In this document: positions 1,692-30,535 of the stretch, one piece after another
Numbering within the stretch: position 1 is the first letter of the stretch
Layout of the letters: each line of letters opens with the position of its first letter
Assembly (NCBI GenBank): GCA_035505375.1
Contig: DATJQV010000033.1
Span: forward strand, 1-48,133
Reading direction: 5' to 3'
DNA length: 48,133 nt
DNA from: a bacterium
GTDB taxonomy: Bacteria; Hydrothermota; Tepidihabitantia; Tepidihabitantales; Tepidihabitantaceae
The notes under the pieces: generated by a model
What the model saw: only the letters and a program-made list of their open reading frames with translations
Databases searched by the model: none
What the model was told of the DNA's origin: nothing
Program-made: the position numbers and the translations under genes

Positions 1692-4049
1692 ATGAAGTAC
1701 TGTTTCGCGCTGCTCACCGCGAGCTGTCTGCTGTCCGCCGTCCATGCCCAGTGGCTGGAGAAGACTGTCTATCTGCCGGATTCGTTCGGCGGCTTGGGAA
1801 TGCCGAACTGCCTGGCCTATGATGTCACCGACAACCGGGTCTTCGTGGCCGGGGCGCTCACGCGGACGATTCTCGTCCTCGACGGGACGGATAGTCGTCG
1901 CTTAGGTCGGGTTCCGTTCCAGGCCGATATCCGCGCTCTCTGCTATAACCCTCTCAGCGACAAGATATACGCGGCCGCTGCGGACCGGAACGTGGTTGCG
2001 GTGGTTGACGCGGCCACAATGCACGTGGCCGAGACCATACCGACCGGGACCGAACCCTGTGCGTTCGCGTACAGCCCGACGTCGAACAGAGTCTTTTGCG
2101 TGAACACACTCAGTCATGACGTGACTGTGATTGACGGCGCGGGAGACAGCGTGGTCGCGACCGTGCCGGTCGGCGAGAACCCGTCCGCGATATGCTGGAA
2201 CCCGGCCCGCAATGTGGTCTACGTCGCCAACTCGAACAGCAACGACGTGAGCGTGATTGACGCGGCAGTCGATAGCGTGATCACGACAATTGCCACCGGC
2301 TACGTGCCGTCCGGCCTGGTGTACAACCCGGACCTGAACCGGCTGTACGAGGCTGATTTCGCCTCCGGTGCGGTGACCGTGATCGACGGCCTGGCGGATA
2401 GGGTACTTACGACCATCCCCGGCGGGACGTCGCCGAAGCGGCTATGCTACAACTCAACGAACCGCAAGGTGTACGTGACGGACCAGGACAATGACATGAT
2501 GGTCATCGACTGCACGGCCGACACGCTGCTGAGAGATGTCAACTGCTACGCGGGCGACGTCACCTACAACGCATCCGACAACCGCATCTACGCGGCCGAC
2601 GGACACGGGATAGCAATGATTGATGGGGCGACGGATGCAGTGCTGGCCGAGACAGGCATCGGCTACAACACGGTGGCTCTGTGTCTGGCCGATTCGGGCA
2701 GGCGGGCATTTGCAACCGCAGACGGGGACGGCGTCGTCGGCATCCTTGACTGCGCGACCGACTCCCTGATAGCCGCGATCAGCACCGAGGTGCGACTCTC
2801 GGCGTTCTGTCTCAATCTGGTCGGGAACAAGGTCTACTGCGCCGACTCCAGCGGCAAGGCGGTCACGGTGATTGACGGCGGGACCGACACTATCAGCGCG
2901 GTTATTCCGGTCGGGCCTCGCCCGGTTGCGCTCCTTCACGACCCGGTCGGGAACAAGGTTTATTGCTCTAACTCCGGGGACGACCACACGCCGGCAACCG
3001 TCACCGTTATTGACGGAGCGGGTGACAGCGTGCTGCGGACGATAGAGATCGGGTCGGGCTACGTCATAGGAGGGCAGGCGCTCTGCCTGGGTCCTGCCGA
3101 CAATCGGGTGTACGCCGGCGTCTATTCGGACAATGCCGTAGCCGTCGTGGACCCGGCCGCCGATACGGTCATCGCGAAGATGCAGGCGGGCGGCAACCCG
3201 GTAGCGCTCTGTTATGGCCCGGCCCACAACTACGTGTATGCCGGCATCCGCGGTTCAGCGGTTGGCGTCTTCGACTGCGGCCAGAACGTCATGATTGCCA
3301 AGCTGACGACCACCGGGACCCCGGTCGCCCTGGTTTACGATTCGGCGGGCGCCAAGGTCTACACCGCGAACGGCAGCTCCGGTGTGGTCAGCGTCATTGC
3401 CGGCGAAAGGCCGGCAGTCATTACCGAGATAAAGGCCTGTAGTTGGGCATCCGCCATCTGTCTGAGCACCAAAGAGAACCGGGTCTACTGCGCAGACCAG
3501 GAGGCCAGCGAGGTAGCAGTGATTGACGCCTCCGCCAACTCGGTCATAGCACACGTGCCGGTCGGCAACCAGCCGAGCGCCCTCTCCTACGACTCCTCCA
3601 ACGATTACGTCTACTGCGCGTGCCGGGGCAGCAACGATGTGTACGTGATTGACTCTCATCGGGACACCGTGGTTAAGCATATCGGCGTCGGCGCTGAGCC
3701 TTTCGCGCTCGTCTGGAATCCGACTGCGCTGCGGACGTACGTCTTGAACTACGCCGGTGCAAGCGTGTCGGTTCTCCGGGATAGCCTGCATCCGGGAGTG
3801 GAGGAAATGGCGAATGCCGAACGCCGAATGTCGAATGGCGGCGCGACGGTCATACGGGGAGTGCTGAAATTGGCGAATGGCGACTGGCGAATGGCGACTG
3901 GCGAACTGCTGGACATCAGCGGGCGGAAGGTTCTGCAACTGCATGACGGTGCCAACGACGTCAGCCGCCTCAGTCCGGGGGTCTATTTCGTGCATTCGAC
4001 AATCGACAATCGGCAATTGAAAATGACCAAGGTCGTAGTTGCGAGGTAG
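1692..4049 (+). CDS. Secreted YVTN-type beta-propeller protein with sorting domain
   Basis: This 785-residue exported protein starts with a signal peptide (MKYCFALLTASCLLSAVHA, cleavage before Q) and consists mainly of ~42-residue YVTN/YncE-type propeller repeats with the pattern VYVAN…VSVID and a hydrophobic-P-S-A turn. The C-terminus (SGRKVLQL … LSPGVYFV) resembles a short T9SS-type sorting domain. I chose ATG 1692 because GGAGG precedes it and the signal peptide begins there; the frame is open back to 504, but that part overlaps mntA/hepT and has no coding character. Two 7-nt periodic patches (3807-3840 and 3871-3908) are read in frame in the linker before the sorting domain, and a third (3997-4020) lies in the tail. 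No ligand or enzymatic role can be read from the sequence; surface display or adhesion is a guess. Confidence 0.88.
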   Translation: MKYCFALLTASCLLSAVHAQWLEKTVYLPDSFGGLGMPNCLAYDVTDNRVFVAGALTRTILVLDGTDSRRLGRVPFQADIRALCYNPLSDKIYAAAADRNVVAVVDAATMHVAETIPTGTEPCAFAYSPTSNRVFCVNTLSHDVTVIDGAGDSVVATVPVGENPSAICWNPARNVVYVANSNSNDVSVIDAAVDSVITTIATGYVPSGLVYNPDLNRLYEADFASGAVTVIDGLADRVLTTIPGGTSPKRLCYNSTNRKVYVTDQDNDMMVIDCTADTLLRDVNCYAGDVTYNASDNRIYAADGHGIAMIDGATDAVLAETGIGYNTVALCLADSGRRAFATADGDGVVGILDCATDSLIAAISTEVRLSAFCLNLVGNKVYCADSSGKAVTVIDGGTDTISAVIPVGPRPVALLHDPVGNKVYCSNSGDDHTPATVTVIDGAGDSVLRTIEIGSGYVIGGQALCLGPADNRVYAGVYSDNAVAVVDPAADTVIAKMQAGGNPVALCYGPAHNYVYAGIRGSAVGVFDCGQNVMIAKLTTTGTPVALVYDSAGAKVYTANGSSGVVSVIAGERPAVITEIKACSWASAICLSTKENRVYCADQEASEVAVIDASANSVIAHVPVGNQPSALSYDSSNDYVYCACRGSNDVYVIDSHRDTVVKHIGVGAEPFALVWNPTALRTYVLNYAGASVSVLRDSLHPGVEEMANAERRMSNGGATVIRGVLKLANGDWRMATGELLDISGRKVLQLHDGANDVSRLSPGVYFVHSTIDNRQLKMTKVVVAR
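3807..3908. repeat. In-frame 7-nt periodic patches
   Basis: At 3807-3840 the unit is cgaatgN/cgaacgN. At 3871-3908 the units alternate tggcgaa and tggcgac. Both repeat at 7 nt and are translated as part of the linker in front of the sorting domain. Confidence 0.8.
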
Positions 4050-4058
4050 GGAAGAACG

Positions 4059-6881
4059 ATGAGAACAACTGAGAGCAGAGGACGGATTCAAGGACTCCAG
4101 GGTTCAAGGGGGCCAGCGCCGGATTCCAATCGGTGTTCATCAGTGTTCATCTGTGGTTTCCCGTTTCGTGTCCTTCGTGTTTTCGTGGCTTCGATGCATG
4201 TTCTGGGAGTTGTCTGCGCGGCGGTGGTCGTGTGCATCGGGACCGCTTCGGCGGATTGGGTCACGGCCACGGTGCCCGCAGGACATCAGCCCGGGGCCGT
4301 GGCGGTAAACCCGGTCACCAACAAGGTCTACATCGTGAACTCCACATACGATAGCAGCACGGTTACGGTAATCGACGGCGCGACCAATGACACAGCCACG
4401 GTGGCCGTCGGCTACTATCCGTTTGCCGCAGCCGTGAACCCGGTTACGAACAAGGTCTACGTCACAAACTCCGCCGACGCCACCGTGACGGTGATTGACG
4501 GCGCGACCAACAGCGCTACCTCAGTGGCAGCCGGCTACTACGCCGGGGCCGTGGCGGTGAACCCGGTCACCGACAAGATATACGTCGCCAATGCCGCCGG
4601 CAGCGATGTGACGGTAATCGACGGCGCAACCAACGACACGGCCACTGTAGCCGTCGGCTCATATCCCCGTGCCGTGGCGGTGAACCCGGTTACTAACAAG
4701 ATATACGTCGTGAATCTGGACAGCAACAGCGTTACCGTAATCGACGGTGCGACCAACGCCACGACCACGGTGTCGGTGGACTCGAGCCCAATTGCCGTGG
4801 CGGTAAACTCGGTCACCAACAAGATCTATGTCGTGAACTACGACGGCGGCAGTGTCACGGTAATAGATGGTGCGACCAACGCCACCGCCACGGTCCCCGT
4901 TGGCTCGCTGCCCAATGCCGTGGCGGTGAACCCGGTCACCAACAGAATCTACGTCGCGAACAGCAACAGCCACAATGTGACGGTCATCAACGGTGCGACG
5001 AATGATACGACAACAGTGCCCGTCGGTTCACACCCTGGTGCCGTGTCAGTGAACCCGGTTACCAACAAGGTCTACGTCGCGAACGGCGATGGCAGCGATG
5101 TTACAGTGATCGACGGCGCGACCGATGATACGTCCACAGTGCCGGCAGGCTCGAATCCCTGTGCGGTGGCGGTGAACCCGGTTACCAACAAGGTCTACGT
5201 CGCGAACAACGGCAGGAATAATGTGACGGTCATTGACGGTGCGACCAATGCCACTGCCGCGATATACGTCGGCTCATACCCGAGGGCAACGGCCGTGAAC
5301 CCGGTCACCAACAATCTCTACGTCGTGAACTACGATAGCAGCAGGGTCACAGTGGTCAACGGCACGACCAGTGACACCGCCACGATAGCCGTGGGCTTGC
5401 ATCCGGCGGCCGTGGCGGTGAACCCCGTTACCAACAAGATCTATGTGGCGAACAGTGGCAGCAACAACGTGACGGTGATAGACGGCGCGACGAACGGCAC
5501 AGCCGTCTTCCCCACTGGCGCGAACCCCGACGCCGTGGCGGTGAACCCGGTCACCAATGAGGTCTACGTCGCGAACAGCAGCAGCGACAATGTTACGGTA
5601 ATCGATGGTGCGACCAACGCCACAGACACCGTGTCAGTCGGCTTACATCCCGGCGCCGTGGCGGTGAACCCGGTGACTAACAAGGTCTACGTCGTCAACA
5701 ACAACAGCAGCAACGTGACGGTCATCGACGGCGCGACCAACGACACAGCCACCGTGTCGGTCGGAGCGCATCCCAGTGCCGTGGCAGTGAACTCGGTTAC
5801 CAACAAGGTCTACGTCGCGAACAACAACAGCAACAACGTGACGGTCATCGACGGCATGACCAACGCCACGGCTACGGTGACCGCTGGCACGATTCCATAT
5901 GAAGTGGCGGTGAATCCTGCTACCAACAACATCTACGTCGTCAACCGCTACAGCAACAACGTGACGGTGATCCACGGAGCCACCAACGCCAAGACCACAG
6001 TGGCCGCGGGCGCAGAGCCGCTTGCCGTGACGGTGAATCCGGTCACCAACAAGATTTATGTCGCGAACTCCGGCAGCAACAACGTAACGGTCATCGACGG
6101 CGCGACGAACGCCACAACCAGCATTGCTGCGGGGACGACACCCTCGGGGATCGCAGTGAACCCGGTTACCGACAAGATATATGTCACGAACAGCGGCAGC
6201 GATAGCGTGACGGAGGTGACGGAGGTGCCGACCAACGATACCAAGGTGCGTGCCCTCTGGAACCCGCTGCCTGGGGATACGACCTCGCACGGGCGTGTGG
6301 TTCTGGATGGCCGAAGCGTGAACCGCTTGTCGCCGGGCCGTGCCGCTATGATGGGTGTGCTGAACTGCATCGGGACAGCGCAACTGCCCTGGAACTGGGC
6401 GTATGTGACCGGCGGGGGCGGCACTGATTCGCTTTCCTGGTCGTACAACTGGGGAACCGATTCGCTGATTGCGGGCGAGAACTTCGTCTGCTGTGTGCCG
6501 CTCGATGCTCAGGCCGCGACCACGAACAACCTTGGGCTCGGCTCACCATTCACGGGCAACCTTGAGGTGCACCCGGTGTATCGGGTTGGATTTGCCAGCG
6601 GGGTCGAGGAGAGCCGCGGGCCACAAGCCGTAAGCTGCAAGCCACAAGCCACGATCGTGCGCGGCGTCCTGTTCCTGCCGCGGGACATGACCGAAATCCG
6701 CCCGGGGATTTCGGATCGTGTCCCAAGGCCAGTGCTGCTCGACGCCAGCGGGCGCAAGGCGCTCGGCTTGCACGCCGGCGCGAACGACGTGCGGTCGCTG
6801 GCTCCCGGCGTATACTTTGTGCGGAAGGCACAAGTGCAAGCCCAAGCACAAGCTGTCCGGAAGGTGGTGGTCACAAGGTAG
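4059..6881 (+). CDS. Secreted 16-repeat YVTN beta-propeller protein
   Basis: This 940-residue protein has 16 near-identical propeller units of 41 residues (123 bp) with the core AVNPVTNKVYVAN and VTVIDGATN. A non-repetitive domain of ~120 residues follows (WNPLPGDTTSHGRV onward), then a sorting-type tail (LLDASGRKALGL, APGVYFVRKAQ). The signal peptide begins only at Met46 (MHVLGVVCAAVVVCIGTASA). The first 45 codons consist of two repeat phrases found elsewhere in intergenic DNA. ATG 4059 keeps the 9-nt junction and GGGAAG ribosome site of its operon neighbours; ATG 4194 would give a clean signal peptide but has no Shine-Dalgarno. The linker carries a 7-nt agccaca-type patch (6620-6653) and a dispersed palindrome (6682-6724). 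It is a close paralogue of the next gene. Confidence 0.87.
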   Translation: MRTTESRGRIQGLQGSRGPAPDSNRCSSVFICGFPFRVLRVFVASMHVLGVVCAAVVVCIGTASADWVTATVPAGHQPGAVAVNPVTNKVYIVNSTYDSSTVTVIDGATNDTATVAVGYYPFAAAVNPVTNKVYVTNSADATVTVIDGATNSATSVAAGYYAGAVAVNPVTDKIYVANAAGSDVTVIDGATNDTATVAVGSYPRAVAVNPVTNKIYVVNLDSNSVTVIDGATNATTTVSVDSSPIAVAVNSVTNKIYVVNYDGGSVTVIDGATNATATVPVGSLPNAVAVNPVTNRIYVANSNSHNVTVINGATNDTTTVPVGSHPGAVSVNPVTNKVYVANGDGSDVTVIDGATDDTSTVPAGSNPCAVAVNPVTNKVYVANNGRNNVTVIDGATNATAAIYVGSYPRATAVNPVTNNLYVVNYDSSRVTVVNGTTSDTATIAVGLHPAAVAVNPVTNKIYVANSGSNNVTVIDGATNGTAVFPTGANPDAVAVNPVTNEVYVANSSSDNVTVIDGATNATDTVSVGLHPGAVAVNPVTNKVYVVNNNSSNVTVIDGATNDTATVSVGAHPSAVAVNSVTNKVYVANNNSNNVTVIDGMTNATATVTAGTIPYEVAVNPATNNIYVVNRYSNNVTVIHGATNAKTTVAAGAEPLAVTVNPVTNKIYVANSGSNNVTVIDGATNATTSIAAGTTPSGIAVNPVTDKIYVTNSGSDSVTEVTEVPTNDTKVRALWNPLPGDTTSHGRVVLDGRSVNRLSPGRAAMMGVLNCIGTAQLPWNWAYVTGGGGTDSLSWSYNWGTDSLIAGENFVCCVPLDAQAATTNNLGLGSPFTGNLEVHPVYRVGFASGVEESRGPQAVSCKPQATIVRGVLFLPRDMTEIRPGISDRVPRPVLLDASGRKALGLHAGANDVRSLAPGVYFVRKAQVQAQAQAVRKVVVTR
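4083..4193. repeat. Dispersed repeat phrases inside a 5' coding end
   Basis: 4083-4110 has an 8-nt period (ggattcaa, ggactcca, gggttcaa). About 4132-4193 contains repeated tgttcat/tcgtgt phrases of the kind also seen near 30408-30535 and 42246-42266. Together they separate the start codon from the signal peptide of the propeller gene. Confidence 0.6.
6682..6724. repeat. Dispersed palindrome, copy 1
   Basis: Two ~18-19 nt arms, starting GGGACATGACCGAAATCC and ending in TGTCCC, pair with one bulge around a short loop. An identical copy is at 9406-9448 and a related one lies in recF at 31407-31446. It is read in frame just before the sorting domain. Confidence 0.8.
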
Positions 6882-6890
6882 AGAGGAACC

Positions 6891-9602
6891 ATGAACGCAA
6901 TGAAGGGACATCCACTCGGAATGTTGATGGTCTGCGCGGCGGTGGTCGTTTGCGTCGGAACCGCTTCAGCGGATTGGGTCACGACCACAGTGGCCTTAGG
7001 AAACTCCCCCAATACCGTGGCGGTGAACCCGGTCACCAACAAGATCTATGTCGCGAGCTACGACTTCACCTACGCTAGAAGCAGTCTCATGGTCATCGAC
7101 GGCACGACTAACGATACGACCACGGTGCTCGTGGGCTCATATCCTGTTGGCGTGTCAGTGAACCCAGTCACCGACAAGATCTATGTCGCGGACCTCTTCG
7201 GTAACGATGTCACGGTGATCGACGGCGCGACTAATGACACAACCGCCGTGGCCACCGACTCATATCCCACTGCTGTCGCAGTGAACCCTGTCACCAACAA
7301 GGTTTACGTCGCGAACCAGCGCAGCAATAGTGTCACGGTGATCGACGGCGCGACCAATGCCACAACCACCGTGGCTGCCGACTCATATCCCGGTCATGTG
7401 TCAGTGAACCCGGCCACCGACAGAATCTACGTCGCGAACTACGGCAGCAGGAGCGTCACGGTGATCGACGGCGCGACCAACGATACGGCCACCGTGGCGG
7501 TGGGCTCACATCCCGCGGCCATGGCGGTGAACCCGGTGACCAACAAGGTCTACGTCGCGAACTCCGGAAGCAAGAGCGTCACGGTCATCGACGGTGCGAC
7601 CAACGCCACAACCACGGTAACCGTGGATTCGAGTCCGTTTGACGTGGCGGTGAACCCGGTCACCAACAAGATCTACGTCGCGAACGTCTACGGCAACAAT
7701 GTGACGGTCATCGATGGCGCGACCGGCAGCACGACCACCGTGGCCGTCGGCAAGTGGCCTACCGCGGTCGCGGTGAACCCGTTGACCAACAAGATTTACG
7801 TCACGAACGAAGGCAGCAGCAACATGACCGTTATCGACGGCGCGACAAACGAAACAACGACGGTGCCTGCAGATTCAATCCCCACTGCAGTGGTGGTGAA
7901 CCCCGTTACCAATAAGGTGTACGTGGCGAACTACAGCGGCGACGATGTGACCGTGATTGATGGTGCATCGAATACCACGACCGCAGTGCCGGCAGACTCA
8001 AGTCCTTCTGCCGTGGCAGCGAACCTGATAACCAACAGGATCTACGTCGCGAACAGCAGCAGTAACACTGTCACAGTCATCGATGGAGCGTCCAATGACA
8101 CGGTCACCGTGGCAGTCGGCTTGCATCCCAATGCCGTGGCAGTGAACCCGGTCATGAACAAGGTCTACGTCGCGAACAGCAACAGCAGTAACGTGACGGT
8201 CATAGACGGAGTGACCAACATGACGACGACGGTGTCGGCAGACTCAAGTCCCTCAGCCGTCGCGGTGAACCCGGTTACCAGCAAGGTTTACGTCGCGAAC
8301 CTCAACAGCAATAATGTGACGGTCATAGACGGGGCGACCAATGATACTACCATGGTGACCGCGGGTTCGCATCCCAGCGCCGTGGCGGTGAACCCAGTTA
8401 CCAACAAGGTCTACGTCGCGAACCTCAGCAGTAACAATGTGACGGTCATAGACGGGGCGACCAATGATACTACCACGGTGACCGCGGGCTCACATCCCAG
8501 CGCCGTGGCGGTTAACCCGGTCACCAACAGAGTCTACGTCGCGAACAACAACAGCAACAACGTGACGGTCATCGACGGCGTGACCAACGCCACGGCAACG
8601 GTACCCGCTGGCTCGATTCCGTATGCGGTGGCGGTGAACCCGGCCACCAACAGGATTTATGTCGCCAACCGCTACAGTAACAACGTGACGGTGATCCACG
8701 GAGCCACCAACGCCAAGACCACGGTGGCCGCGGGCGCAGAGCCGTTTGCCGTGACGGTGAATCCGGTCACCAACAAGATTTACGTCGCGAATTCCGGCAG
8801 CAACAACGTGACGGTCATCGACGGCGCGACGAACGCCACAACCAGCATTGCTGCGGGGACGACACCCTCGGGGATCGCAGTGAACCCGATCACCGACAGG
8901 ATCTATGTCGCGAACAGCGGCAGCGATAGCGTGACGGAGGTGACGGAGGTGCCGACCAACGATACCAAAGTGCGTGCCGTCTGGAACCCGCTGCCTGGGG
9001 ACACGACCTCGCACGGGCGTGTGGTCCTGGATGGCCGAGGCGTGAACCGCTGGGCGCCGGGCCGCACGACGATGATGGCTGTACTGAACCGAGTCGGGAC
9101 GGTGCAGTTGCCCTGGAACTGGGCGTATGTGATTGGCGGGGGCGGCACTGACTCGATGTCATGGTCGTACAACTGGCGTAGCGACTCGCTGATTGCTGGC
9201 GAGAACTTCGTCTGCTGCGTGCCGCTTGAAGCTCAGGCCGCGACCGCCAACAACCTCGGTCGGGGGACGCCGTTAGCGGGCAACCTTGAAGTGTACCCGG
9301 TGTATCGGATTGGATTTGCCAGCGGAGTCGAGGAAACGATGAACGAGGAACGAGGAACGATGAACGTGGCGGCGACCATCGTGCGCGGCGTCCTGTTCCT
9401 GCCGCGGGACATGACCGAAATCCGCCCGGGGATTTCGGATCGTGTCCCAAGGCCAGTGCTGCTCGACGCCAGCGGGCGCAAGGCGCTCGACCTCCGGCCC
9501 GGCTCGAACGACGTGCGGTCGCTGGTCCCCGGCGTCTACTTCGTGCATTCGGCAGTCGACAATCGGCAATCGAAAATGACCAAGGTCGTGGTAACGAGGT
9601 AA
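6891..9602 (+). CDS. Secreted 16-repeat YVTN beta-propeller protein (paralogue)
   Basis: This 903-residue protein is the paralogue of its upstream neighbour, with the same order: signal peptide (MLMVCAAVVVCVGTASA, preceded by ten residues), 16 propeller units of 41 residues, the ~120-residue WNPLPGDTTSHGRV domain and a sorting tail (LLDASGRKALDL, VPGVYFVHS). ATG 6891 follows GAGAGGAAC at the usual 9-nt spacing from the previous stop. Units 14-16 and the region after them are almost identical at DNA level to the previous gene, while earlier units differ, which points to gene conversion or a recent recombination over the 3' half. A 7-nt gaacgag-type patch (9333-9368), the palindrome (9406-9448) and a tail patch (9556-9580) are all read in frame. 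Confidence 0.9.
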   Translation: MNAMKGHPLGMLMVCAAVVVCVGTASADWVTTTVALGNSPNTVAVNPVTNKIYVASYDFTYARSSLMVIDGTTNDTTTVLVGSYPVGVSVNPVTDKIYVADLFGNDVTVIDGATNDTTAVATDSYPTAVAVNPVTNKVYVANQRSNSVTVIDGATNATTTVAADSYPGHVSVNPATDRIYVANYGSRSVTVIDGATNDTATVAVGSHPAAMAVNPVTNKVYVANSGSKSVTVIDGATNATTTVTVDSSPFDVAVNPVTNKIYVANVYGNNVTVIDGATGSTTTVAVGKWPTAVAVNPLTNKIYVTNEGSSNMTVIDGATNETTTVPADSIPTAVVVNPVTNKVYVANYSGDDVTVIDGASNTTTAVPADSSPSAVAANLITNRIYVANSSSNTVTVIDGASNDTVTVAVGLHPNAVAVNPVMNKVYVANSNSSNVTVIDGVTNMTTTVSADSSPSAVAVNPVTSKVYVANLNSNNVTVIDGATNDTTMVTAGSHPSAVAVNPVTNKVYVANLSSNNVTVIDGATNDTTTVTAGSHPSAVAVNPVTNRVYVANNNSNNVTVIDGVTNATATVPAGSIPYAVAVNPATNRIYVANRYSNNVTVIHGATNAKTTVAAGAEPFAVTVNPVTNKIYVANSGSNNVTVIDGATNATTSIAAGTTPSGIAVNPITDRIYVANSGSDSVTEVTEVPTNDTKVRAVWNPLPGDTTSHGRVVLDGRGVNRWAPGRTTMMAVLNRVGTVQLPWNWAYVIGGGGTDSMSWSYNWRSDSLIAGENFVCCVPLEAQAATANNLGRGTPLAGNLEVYPVYRIGFASGVEETMNEERGTMNVAATIVRGVLFLPRDMTEIRPGISDRVPRPVLLDASGRKALDLRPGSNDVRSLVPGVYFVHSAVDNRQSKMTKVVVTR
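9406..9448. repeat. Dispersed palindrome, copy 2
   Basis: Identical in sequence to the palindrome at 6682-6724 and at the same place in the paralogous gene. Arms begin GGGACATGAC and end GTGTCCC. Confidence 0.8.
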
Positions 9603-21129: not shown

Positions 21130-21236
21130 CCCGCCGGGATTCCGGGACGTGAAGAAGGCGGTTGTAACGAGGTGAGCCGCAAGTAGGCAGTAGACAGTAG
21201 GTAGTAGACAGTAGACGATAGACAGCTGACAGGGCA
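21130..21236. repeat. Gene-tail remnant plus cagtaga repeat, copy 2
   Basis: The frame reads …GFRDVKKAVVTR and stop at about 21130-21175, like the KVVVTR-stop ends of the secreted-protein genes, although no such gene is present here. A cagtaga-type 7-nt patch follows (21180-21236). It mirrors 20405-20469. Confidence 0.6.
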
Positions 21237-21429: not shown

Positions 21430-21582
21430 GTCCAAGTCGGCGTCTCGGTGTATCTGCTTGTGGCTTGTGGCGTTAGGCTTCAGGGCGCGAAACTGACATC
21501 CCCACCCGGGGGATTACCCCGCGGATAGTAGACAGGATTCAGTATACAGTTGACAGGGAGGTTACCTCCACCGCAATTCCCG

Positions 21583-21750
21583 GATGAACCTCCACCGGAA
21601 TTCGCCGGGTTGCTCTACCGGTTCCTCTCCGGGTTGGTCGGAGCGTTACGGCCCGAGTAAGTCCGCGGGTTCCTGTCCGGGTTGCTCCCGAGTAAGCTCC
21701 GACCGTTGTCCTCTAGATTGCTCGGAGAATTGCTTCCCGGAGAACTGGTT
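21583..21750. repeat. Degenerate 12-nt periodic array D1
   Basis: About 13 units with the core GGGTTGCTC/GGTTCCTC recur every 12 nt, with one 11/13-nt jitter near 21690-21706. On the minus strand one frame reads as tetrapeptides of the SNPD/RNPR/SNSP kind. No start codon with a ribosome site is evident on either strand. Confidence 0.65.
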
Positions 21751-21786
21751 CCATGGAGTGCCGGGAAATGAGGGACACTCCCAGGA

Positions 21787-21835: not shown

Positions 21836-22014
21836 CGGCGCTTGCCAGCGCGGTACAGTCCCATTTTCGCAGAGAGCCGCGTGCCGTTCCGGAAAAGCGG
21901 CAACTCTGCTGCCGTACTCCAAAGGCCTGACTGTCATCTATACGTAGCGGTGCGCCGGTTGGAAGCCACAATTCTGCCGCCCAGTGGGCGGCCCAGGGAC
22001 CGCTCCCCCGGTTG

Positions 22015-22350
22015 CGTCTGCCGATACAGCACGAGGTACAACTAACCTTACAACTACAGGTACTTCAAGACGAACAACTTGCCGAACAACAACACGAACA
22101 ACTTCTGGTACTTCTTGTGGAACAACTTCTCGAACTTCTCGCTATTCAACTCCGCGAGCAACTTCTTGCACAAGTCGAGACACAGCTTGCTACACGGCTG
22201 AAGACACATGTGCTTATGCAAGCGACTACGCAACTGAGGATACTTCTGCCGGTACTTCCTGAGGAACAACTAGAGGTACATCTTGAGACACAAGTGCGGC
22301 TTCGGTGCCAGGTTGAGGTCAAGACCAGGGAACAGGTTGAGGTTAAGGTT
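22015..22350 (+). repeat. Degenerate 12-nt periodic array D2, 28 units without indels
   Basis: Twenty-eight consecutive 12-nt units (for example CAACTTCTCGAA at 22123, CAACTCCGCGAG at 22147, CAACTTCTTGCA at 22159) keep an exact register with substitutions only. In the plus frame they read as tetrapeptides rich in Q, L and E (EQLL, AQVE, TQLA). An open frame covers 22012-22413 but starts with TTG and lacks a convincing Shine-Dalgarno. It is either a decayed or an unusual small coding region. With D1, the hairpins and a 7-nt patch at 22449-22499 it fills the 1.5 kb gap before the M20 gene. Confidence 0.8.
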
Positions 22351-22448
22351 GAGGGGGCGGGGTCCGATTCACGTGCGCCCGTCTTCCGCTGCAAGGCAAG
22401 CCGTTCGGCTTGACTCGCGGCGGGATTTCGAGAATCATCTCTGGAGAA

Positions 22449-24329: not shown

Positions 24330-26246
24330 CTAGAAAGCCAGCAGCAGCAGTTCCGCGGCGAAGGCGAATGCTGCGAGCCAGAGCAACACCGGAGACAGGT
24401 CGGATGATTGGCGATTGGCGATCGGCGATTGGCGATCGGCGGAAACAGGCAGGACCTGATAGCCAAGCGTCTTGAGTGAATCTGCCGGGAAAGGCGACAG
24501 GTCGCCCTCGGCGGCAAGGACATTGACAGCATACGGCCGGTCGTCGACCAGATAGATGCCGGGTTGCTGGGTCCGGGTCAGCGCGATCTCGGCACGTCCG
24601 GCTCCCGGTTCGGGTGTCTGGCTCAAGCGACCAGCCGGCGTCGAAACCGTGACCGGACCCGAACCGCTGACCGGCGCGTGGATTGTATCTCCGACAAGAT
24701 ACTCGGCGCGCAGCGGTCCGCTGGTAAGGTAGAGCAGAGTCCGGTGGAGCAGCGGCACGAACGGAGCTTTGAACACGAGGTCGGTGAAGTCTGGCACGGC
24801 AGTGAACGCCCACAGGACGAGGCGGCCGTTCTCCGCATCCAACATCAGCGGCTCGCCATCCGATAGCCGCGCAAGAACCCGGGCCCCGGCCGGGTCCAAC
24901 CGGGCATGAGTGAAGAAACGCGCTGACGACAGGCCGGCAGCACCGATGATATCCATCACAGGATGGGTCGTGTCCACCGAGACAACCGAGACGAATCCGG
25001 CGGGTTGCGACAATCCGTGAAACCGGATGCGTCCGGCCAGCAGCGACGAATCCGCGGGAGCATTACCGAACATCACCAGGGCCGAGCCGCCGGACTGAAG
25101 GAAGAAGTCGAGCCGAGTCCAGTCGGGTCGGCTGAGCGCGGCAGCATCGGTGACGACGACTGCCCCGAACCGGCGCGGGTCGTAGCGGCCGAAATCGGTC
25201 GCGGCAACTGTGGTCAGACTGAAGACCGACGAAGAGTCCGCACCAAGCGCGTCGACCAGATACCGCGCCGGGGCGGCGGGCGATTCCACCACTAGCACCG
25301 AGATGCGCTGCGGCTGGTATGCCGCGAGCCAGCGCGTGTTGTCCGCTTCGAGCGAATCGCCGCGCAGTTCCACCTTCGCGACGTGATACCCGGAATCGGT
25401 GAGCGCGGTCTCAAAGGTCACGGTCGCGGACGAGTGCGGCTTGATGGCGACGGCCTGCTCCTCGTGGTGGTCACCGAGGGTCAGAACCGCGGTACGCGTT
25501 GCCGGGTGCGGGCCGTAGTTGGCGAAGTCAGCCTTGATGCGCGTCGCCCGGCCCGCGACCGGGAAACGTTCCTCGGTGTAGAGCCGGGTAACGCCCGCGT
25601 TGTCCGCATCCGGCGGAGCGACCGCGGCGAGCAGGACCGGTACGTCAGCCGGCGGTCGCCAGTTGGAGGGCATCGCGCGGGCCTGCAGGTCGGTAACGAC
25701 CGCGACATCAGCGTGTGCGGGCCGGGCGAACTCGACCGCACGCCTCAAAGCGGGCTCCAGTATCGCCGCGGAATAAGACGGCTTCAGCGAGTCAAGCACG
25801 GGCAGCAGCGTACCCGGCGTCTGCCACTGCAAACCGGAAACCGGCAACTGGTCACTCGCCCTGGCAAGCGCAGCCCGTCGCCCCGGCCCCAGCGAACCGA
25901 TGAGTTCCCGCGCTGCTGCAATCGCCCGCTGCCATTGCGGCCCCATGCTGTACGAGTCATCGAGCACGACAATCAGGTCGTTCGACCGGCCGAGTCCGGG
26001 CAGGCGGTGCCGGACATAGGGCCGGGCCAGCGCGAGCAGCAGCGCGAGCAGTGCGAGTGTGCGGAAGATAAGCAGCAGCAACTCCTTCAGCCGGAGCCAC
26101 GAGAACCGTTCGCGCCGGACGGTCGTGAGCAAGAGCAGCGACGGAAACTCAGCACGCCTGAGCCGCAGGCGACTGAGGATGTGAATGACGACAGGAATCG
26201 CGGCCAGCGCGGCGAGCGGCAAGAGAGAGGGCGCTGAGAAACCCAT
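24330..26246 (-). CDS. BatA-like membrane protein with von Willebrand A domain
   Basis: This 638-residue membrane protein starts with the aerotolerance-regulator/BatA N-terminal domain (LPLAALAAIPVVIHILSRLRLRR, then a second membrane helix). A von Willebrand A domain follows with an intact MIDAS start (VVLDDSYSMG). The rest is a long predicted extracytoplasmic part and a final membrane helix (LLWLAAFAFAAELLLLAF). It is encoded just after the DUF58 gene on the same strand, the usual pairing in MoxR/Bat-type loci, but no MoxR ATPase is seen in the window. A 7-nt cgattgg/cgatcgg patch (24404-24441) is translated in the linker before the last membrane helix. No good ribosome binding site precedes ATG 26246. 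Confidence 0.85.
   Translation of the reverse strand: MGFSAPSLLPLAALAAIPVVIHILSRLRLRRAEFPSLLLLTTVRRERFSWLRLKELLLLIFRTLALLALLLALARPYVRHRLPGLGRSNDLIVVLDDSYSMGPQWQRAIAAARELIGSLGPGRRAALARASDQLPVSGLQWQTPGTLLPVLDSLKPSYSAAILEPALRRAVEFARPAHADVAVVTDLQARAMPSNWRPPADVPVLLAAVAPPDADNAGVTRLYTEERFPVAGRATRIKADFANYGPHPATRTAVLTLGDHHEEQAVAIKPHSSATVTFETALTDSGYHVAKVELRGDSLEADNTRWLAAYQPQRISVLVVESPAAPARYLVDALGADSSSVFSLTTVAATDFGRYDPRRFGAVVVTDAAALSRPDWTRLDFFLQSGGSALVMFGNAPADSSLLAGRIRFHGLSQPAGFVSVVSVDTTHPVMDIIGAAGLSSARFFTHARLDPAGARVLARLSDGEPLMLDAENGRLVLWAFTAVPDFTDLVFKAPFVPLLHRTLLYLTSGPLRAEYLVGDTIHAPVSGSGPVTVSTPAGRLSQTPEPGAGRAEIALTRTQQPGIYLVDDRPYAVNVLAAEGDLSPFPADSLKTLGYQVLPVSADRQSPIANRQSSDLSPVLLWLAAFAFAAELLLLAF
24404..24441. 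repeat. In-frame cgattgg/cgatcgg 7-nt patch
   Basis: Units gattggc, gattggc, gatcggc, gattggc, gatcggc recur every 7 nt. On the coding (minus) strand they encode the linker peptide SADRQSPIANRQSS. Confidence 0.8.
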
Positions 26247-29755: not shown

Positions 29756-30015
29756 GCGTCCGGACCTGAGGACGATGTTCCGAGCAGGGAAGGAGAAGTC
29801 GGGTTTGGCCCGATTTGGCCTTGCATCAGTCTGGATGTTGTTCGCGCGCGGGTCGGAGTCAAGGCCAGCGCGCAAGTGGATTTCGAGATCAGCGAGAGGG
29901 CAAAAAGAACTGAGGACTTAGTGACTCCAGCCAATCGAGCGTAACTCAATTGCTCTCGGTCGGTTAAGCACTGTCGAGTCGCGGAGAATCCGCATATAGG
30001 GGTCGCCCGGGGGCT

Positions 30016-30303
30016 AGCCTTCGAAGGAGCATTCGAAGAAGCCATGAAACAAGCCTTGAAATGAGCTTTGAGCTGAGCTTTCAGAAGAACTTTGACGCGA
30101 GCTTTCGTCGGAGCTTTGAGGCAAGCGATGCGAGAAGCGATGCGCTGAGCCTTGAAACGAGCGATGCGCGAAGCGATGTGGCGAGCGCTGAAACGAGCGA
30201 TGTGATAAGCGATGAAGTAAGCTCTCGAGTTAGATTTCTTGGGAGCTTTGAAGGGAGCTCTCTGCCGAGCTTTCAGAGGAGCTTCTAACGGCGCATTCAG
30301 CGG
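30016..30303. repeat. Degenerate 12-nt periodic array D3, 24 units without indels
   Basis: Twenty-four 12-nt units with the core AGCNNTGANNNG (for example AGCTTTGAGCTG at 30064, AGCGATGCGCGA at 30160, AGCTTTGAAGGG at 30244) keep an exact register. On the minus strand every fourth residue of one frame is Ala (KAQL, KAHF, IASR, IARF); on the plus strand every fourth is Ser. Neither strand shows a promoter or ribosome site. It lies between the YCF48-like gene and recF. Confidence 0.8.
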
Positions 30304-30308
30304 CATTT

Positions 30309-30535
30309 TCGATTGCCGATTGTCGAGTGTCGATTGGCGGGAGTCGCAGGGCGGTTGTCCGCTTGTCGACTGGCAAGTGCTGCCCGCGACGACGCCAGAA
30401 CCGGATTCGATTCGGGACTCAATCTGCGTCCATCTGCGGGATCTGTGGATAGTCTGGTCCGAGCCTTGGCGAACTTGGCGTCTTGGCGGTTCTCACATCT
30501 GTGCCATCTGCGTCATCTGCGGTTTATCCTCTCCG
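30309..30535. repeat. Mixed dispersed phrases upstream of recF
   Basis: 30309-30349 is a 7-nt cgattgN patch. From about 30408 to 30535 there are repeated phrases such as atctgcgtc, atctgtgcc, catctgcgg and cttggcgNN of the same type as at 4132-4193. A single TGTGGATAG (30444-30452), one base off a DnaA box, lies inside them and is not convincing as an origin element. Confidence 0.6.

Follow-up and report, generated by a model that had tools for sequence, protein, structure and literature searches.

The 12-base array D2, at positions 22015 to 22350 of the window (the whole 48,133-nucleotide stretch analyzed here, contig C33 of a 3.6 Mb genome, G000), is one copy of a dispersed element, composed of a head of about 88 bases (21937-22023) followed by roughly 25-28 tandem 12-base units. 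The element is multi-copy and confined to a single genus of uncultured WOR-3 bacteria, and the evolution of its array is constrained with a period of 12 bases. Tentatively, and with a confidence that stops a little short of even, we put forward that the array is a multi-site recognition platform for a putative reader, and forms the body of a non-coding, probably non-autonomous element. Dispersed intergenic repeats and tandem arrays of short units are already known in bacteria; the combination of a head, a strict 12-base register, phase constraint and an array-wide phase switch is apparently undescribed, and open-licence PMC papers yielded no description of 12-base intergenic arrays or of WOR-3 repeats.

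Structure of the Array and Its Head

The preliminary description had reported 28 units of 12 nt in exact register, every unit being different, and both points hold: we found no shift of register and no identical pair among the 28. The identity of D2 with itself is 0.51 at lag 12, 0.53 at lag 24, 0.50 at lag 36 and 0.47 at lag 60; 1000 dinucleotide shuffles, scored at lags 2 to 30, gave no value above 0.35. The units, whose consensus is CAACTTCAGGTA, are mutually about half identical, and are so diverged that Tandem Repeats Finder reports 22050-22114 only. Periodicity extends from about 21960 to about 22355, the ends at 22015 and 22350 being somewhat arbitrary. Colinearity with other copies stops near 22302, so that the shared array comprises 24 units in the register of the preliminary description (22015-22302, plus strand). 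The last four units (22303-22350, plus strand) are specific to the window copy and, judging from the sequence and the alignments of the closest copies, look like a GAGGTT-type sub-repeat.

Similarity among copies starts upstream of the array, in the conserved head ACAATTCTGCCG...AGTGG.CGGCCCA, which in the window (21937-22023, plus strand) matches our head model with E = 6.5e-19. At its 5' end the head alignment places a short near-palindrome, CTATACGTAG (21938-21947, plus strand; family form CTAYATGTAG), and further on the sequence contains a perfect hairpin, GCCGCCC AGT GGGCGGC (21976-21992, plus strand). Across the family, CCG/CGG arms enclose a loop that occurs in either orientation: 44 copies carry orientation A, 16 the inverted orientation B and three neither or an unclear one, in a set of 63 whose first copies came from a pattern favoring one loop orientation. 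On a tree built from the array only, the loop switched orientation at least nine times. This inversion suggests hairpin structure at the DNA level in the head.

Distribution of the Element

The closest copies lie in the same genome, on contigs C41 and C29 (94-96% identical), with weaker ones on C2 and C14. Window positions 21848-22294 are 93.8% identical to C41, diverging from 22294, and positions 21848-22259 are 96.4% identical to C29, diverging from 22259. The alignments thus include an upstream stretch common to these three copies (21848-21937, plus strand), and similar sequence is found 5' of copies L022, L026 and L042. With up to three mismatches, the head pattern occurs five times in G000, is present in four of the five other genomes of the genus and was found in none of the other 144 genomes searched. 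A scan of named genomes with the exact pattern returned seven stretches, all from candidate division WOR-3. A sequence-only model of 88 positions (R1), built from 26 heads, gave 124 matches at E <= 0.01 in all six genomes of the genus (13, 34, 14, 24, 24 and 15 in G000 to G005, respectively). When 120 genomes were searched with an E cut-off of 0.001, matches appeared in seven: the six of the genus and, weakly, one of the same family (G014). Copies occupy unrelated sites within one genome, as befits a dispersed non-coding repeat element, and the orthologous site upstream of an M20 peptidase gene lacks the element in all five relatives within the genus.

For comparisons among copies, the first 27, obtained with the orientation-favoring pattern, were joined by 40 picked from the 124 model matches, mostly high-scoring ones. 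Four were dropped before the 63-copy alignment: L031 (unrelated sequence after the head), L157 (at the end of a contig), L175 (with a truncated array) and L185, whose array is not colinear. The last of these, on contig C12 of G000, has a head of the kind found in the T-type copies described below, followed by a different, T-rich array. In several copies of G001 (L027, L037, L041, L149, L150 and L152) a run of AGTCAAA heptamers replaces the first units, with the register kept.

Register and Phase

Maintenance of the register had been taken to suggest either coding constraint or a process that copies in multiples of 12, and the second proposal is borne out by the copies. Between fixed anchors, the array measures 258, 270, 282, 294 or 306 bases, and is thus equal modulo 12, in 61 of the 63; the exceptions are L166, which lies beside a contig end, and L169, which is one base longer. 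In the first 26 copies we inferred at least eight array indels, each 12 or 24 bases long, as compared with 1253 array base changes, and the head of the same copies has 1-base indels within 288 changes. Non-coding tandem DNA has kept a strict 12-base register through more than 2000 inferred base changes.

A neutral minisatellite, in which slippage makes units and substitution decays them while rare small indels and in-register recombination keep the register, is a rival explanation of this pattern. Length changes by whole units in minisatellites and VNTR loci, as it does here, one array unit of L022 having been locally multiplied; near-identical copies share the array only in part and diverge inside it. 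Furthermore, of 24 arrays drawn from several families, 22 are in phase between their halves (one has a one-base shift and one is ambiguous), so that low indel rates may be general, and the base-change spectrum of the array is not odd when compared with fourfold sites. Template-switch mutagenesis, which we considered for the base differences within the array, is not needed for D2, given that C-G changes are commonest at fourfold sites too; the inversion of the head loop is nonetheless clear.

Against neutral decay stands, in the first place, the dependence of rate on phase. Among 56 C-type copies (excluding five T-type copies, L166 and L169), the mean changes per column counted on a tree, at phases 1 to 12 in the register of the preliminary description, were 6.5, 7.6, 7.0, 4.3, 10.0, 11.5, 9.1, 13.1, 7.4, 6.5, 7.7 and 10.0, an approximately threefold difference, after control for base, between the slowest phase (4) and the fastest (8). 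When rates were permuted within consensus base, the observed spread was reached in none of 2000 trials. The 26-copy set has the same phase dependence, with signal, among periods 5 to 24, at 6 and 12 and smaller at 24, 9 and 18. Exchange of units between positions could in part make the variable phases seem faster than they are, but leaves phases that are uniform across units unexplained.

The second observation is a switch at a single phase along the whole array. Five T-type copies (L167, L170, L172, L178 and L186, from three genomes) have T at phase 4 in 19-24 of 25 units, a phase at which C-type copies have C in 66%, G in 26% and T in 6%. The other eleven phases are nearly equal in composition in the two types, and in a comparison of individual units the T-type arrays are about as similar to C-type arrays as a C-type control is. 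Both types coexist in G000 and G003, making a genome-wide mutation bias unlikely. The five copies group together as a clade in both the head tree and the array tree; the switch may be one event and counts as a single instance. A change of one phase over 19-24 units in one clade, with eleven phases left as they were, is difficult to reconcile with a neutral minisatellite, as is the rate difference, and also sets D2, with its units only half identical, apart from known minisatellites and VNTR loci. We consider the neutral explanation unlikely on the whole, although far from negligible.

The recognition platform that we favor would fit these observations as follows. The element behaves as if something reads its units one by one; the 12-bp unit may be a site bound many times over by a putative oligomerizing DNA-binding protein, an RNA-binding one being less likely. 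With binding as an oligomer, the gain or loss of a unit would do little harm, and a shift of phase would be harmful. Different letters at one phase among subfamilies might then reflect different putative readers. If such a reader exists, co-evolution between a multi-site DNA target and its binder would be naturally recorded in these arrays in unusually rich form.

Coding Potential

The alternative proposal, a coding constraint on D2, is contradicted by stops in all six frames across copies, by the codon-position pattern and by the absence of a Pfam match. As a tetrapeptide-repeat gene, D2 would have in its favor an open frame of 133 codons in the window copy and array indels that are multiples of three; the latter are, however, multiples of 12 and not merely of 3. 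The plus frame that had been singled out (EQLL, AQVE, TQLA) contains 17 stops in 26 copies, with at least one in 15 of them and some at the first codon, and is interrupted in 42 of the 63 copies. All five T-type copies have 4-9 stops in this frame. By frame, the stop-free copies number 21, 11, 6, 14, 4 and 4 of 63, none of the six frames being open across every copy. In the same frame, columns at codon positions 1, 2 and 3 average 3.58, 5.17 and 4.87 changes (26 copies): the second position is the fastest and the first the slowest, where a protein would be expected to have the third fastest and the second slowest. A search of D2 against Pfam gave no matching family. A column-shuffle null for stop codons produced both deficits (40 vs 66 in one minus-strand frame) and excesses between frames, and we do not count it as evidence. 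Stops and frameshifts in all frames among relatives had been named in advance as the outcome that would speak against coding constraint; the stops are there, but frameshifts are almost absent. For the family taken together, a gene for tetrapeptide repeats is already refuted, and we accord it next to no probability.

Transcription and Folding

Transcription into a non-coding RNA, the 12-base units of which would bind protein or pair with other RNAs, is a further explanation, and one that we regard as rather improbable. The conserved head with its hairpins is in keeping with an RNA, and two of ten predicted head pairs are changed on both sides; the covariation is nevertheless weak, with a term of only -0.54, and an inverted head loop would alter an RNA loop. 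The array itself does not fold beyond chance: neither strand of D2 exceeds unit-order or column shuffles (z of -0.2 and 1.8 against the latter). Additionally, the only promoter-like site that we found is 3' of the array (22410-22438), the longest right-hand ORF is co-directed at 13 of 27 loci, a crude measure, and an Rfam search gave nothing credible. Another array family of the same genome, of TGACTCGCCGAG type, does lend the idea some support by folding strand-specifically beyond column-shuffled controls. Its arrays (L044:7169, L048:4113, L054:5853 and L056:9907) fold more strongly than the shuffles, most of them on one strand, with z of -5.7, -3.4, -2.5 and -2.2. AT-rich promoter-like sequence lies directly 5' of these arrays.

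Mobility and Comparison with Known Systems

Spread of the element between sites might be that of a non-autonomous repeat, or might come about as copies recombine and undergo gene conversion with one another. A clean empty site accompanied by a target duplication was found neither at the orthologous sites nor in two comparisons of G004 with G005; in these two, where element ends and target duplications were sought, flanking synteny is broken. Y1 transposases are present in all six genomes of the genus, with 4-7 genes each. We rejected them as the mobilizing agent, as the Y1 flanks carry other termini. Among 20 Y1 loci none has a convincing head, core matches being weak, so that the association expected of RAYT/REP pairs was not observed; for three of the 31 Y1 genes a head is located no more than 2 kb away, a proximity that we judge weak. 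Many of the Y1 genes at L187-L206 are flanked by REP-like termini (GGGGACAC.../...GTGTCCC).

REP/BIME and MITE-like elements are mobilized by Y1 (RAYT) or other transposases. As in our case, they are short, non-coding, dispersed and hairpin-bearing, with tens of copies and a genus-restricted distribution. They are not known, however, to have a tandem 12-base body, and here the termini flanking Y1 differ and no target duplication was seen. The iteron and centromere arrays parC and tubC, which are bound by ParR and TubR, resemble D2 in their in-phase direct repeats of about 11-12 bp, read in that case by an oligomerizing protein. Yet a replicon has one or a few of them, each made up of few units and adjoining a protein gene, unlike the 13-34 copies per genome found here without an identified adjacent gene.

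The STRR sequences of cyanobacteria are intergenic direct repeats of heptamers, and the 7-base unit of that class is not that of D2, the identity of which at lag 7 is 0.22, a background level. Excerpts from a study of Beggiatoaceae (PMC4679880) describe sets of TAACTGA as intergenic direct repeats with 7-base units, mostly in 2-6 copies per set. Such heptamer repeats, thought according to the same excerpts to be regulator binding sites, share with D2 an intergenic, non-coding position, short tandem units and many loci per genome. D2 differs from what is described there: its units are 12 bases long, their 25-28 copies are diverged and colinear in order, and a conserved head precedes them.

Short tandem units that all differ might also recall the guide arrays of CRISPR or TIGR systems. 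TIGR arrays, in the excerpted account of them (PMC12045711), consist of two repeats in alternation, with spacers of 9 nt, and have a Nop-domain protein as a neighbor. D2 does not have this arrangement of alternating repeats, spacers and a Nop-domain Tas protein: unique spacers are absent, the differences between units are inherited colinearly from copy to copy, and the Nop family (PF01798) was detected in none of the six genomes of the genus. We thus view a guide array as extremely unlikely.

Other Arrays in the Genome

G000 holds many further 12-base arrays of unrelated consensus. In a 437 kb sample (the window and 20 stretches), non-random in that contigs were taken for their query matches, 21 regions reach an identity of 0.52 or more at lag 12 across 144 bases. 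Other lags are represented by six regions at lag 7, two at 14 and single ones at 6, 8, 9 and 28, those at 24 and 36 being harmonics of 12. Similar arrays are present in sampled stretches of G001, G003, G004 and G005, mostly chosen around heads. Contigs C66, C4 and C32, about 232 kb of the G000 sample, contain seven 12-base arrays, which by extrapolation would amount to about a hundred per genome. A single ancestry for all of them was rejected: of 40 arrays, 14 fit the D2 unit profile, whereas the other 26 fall outside it, one of them (of GAGCAACCCGG type) marginally. More speculatively, and in our opinion doubtfully, the genus might possess a set of about a hundred phased 12-bp arrays per genome, in several unrelated unit classes, each a platform for its own putative reader, with one-letter phase switches tracking reader specificity as a chromosome-wide array code, of which the papers searched gave no description. 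The occurrence of several unrelated 12-base classes in one genome raises the question of what sets the number 12.

The window itself includes a second 12-base array, of GAGCTTTGAAAC type (29974-30344), and units of this type follow the D2-like head of L185. Some 250 bases away from D2 lies a minus-strand array of period 12/24 and GAGCAACCCGGA type (21534-21772), roughly complementary to D2; similar arrays occur at L051:11742 and L055:6937. Heptamer arrays (AGTAGAC, GATTGGC and TGGCGAA types) were noted in spacers at 21182-21225, 24406-24441, 3871-3905 and elsewhere. Finally, the window positions 4290-6213 and 7091-8937 hold genes with about fifteen 123-base repeats, which apparently encode beta-propeller repeat proteins.
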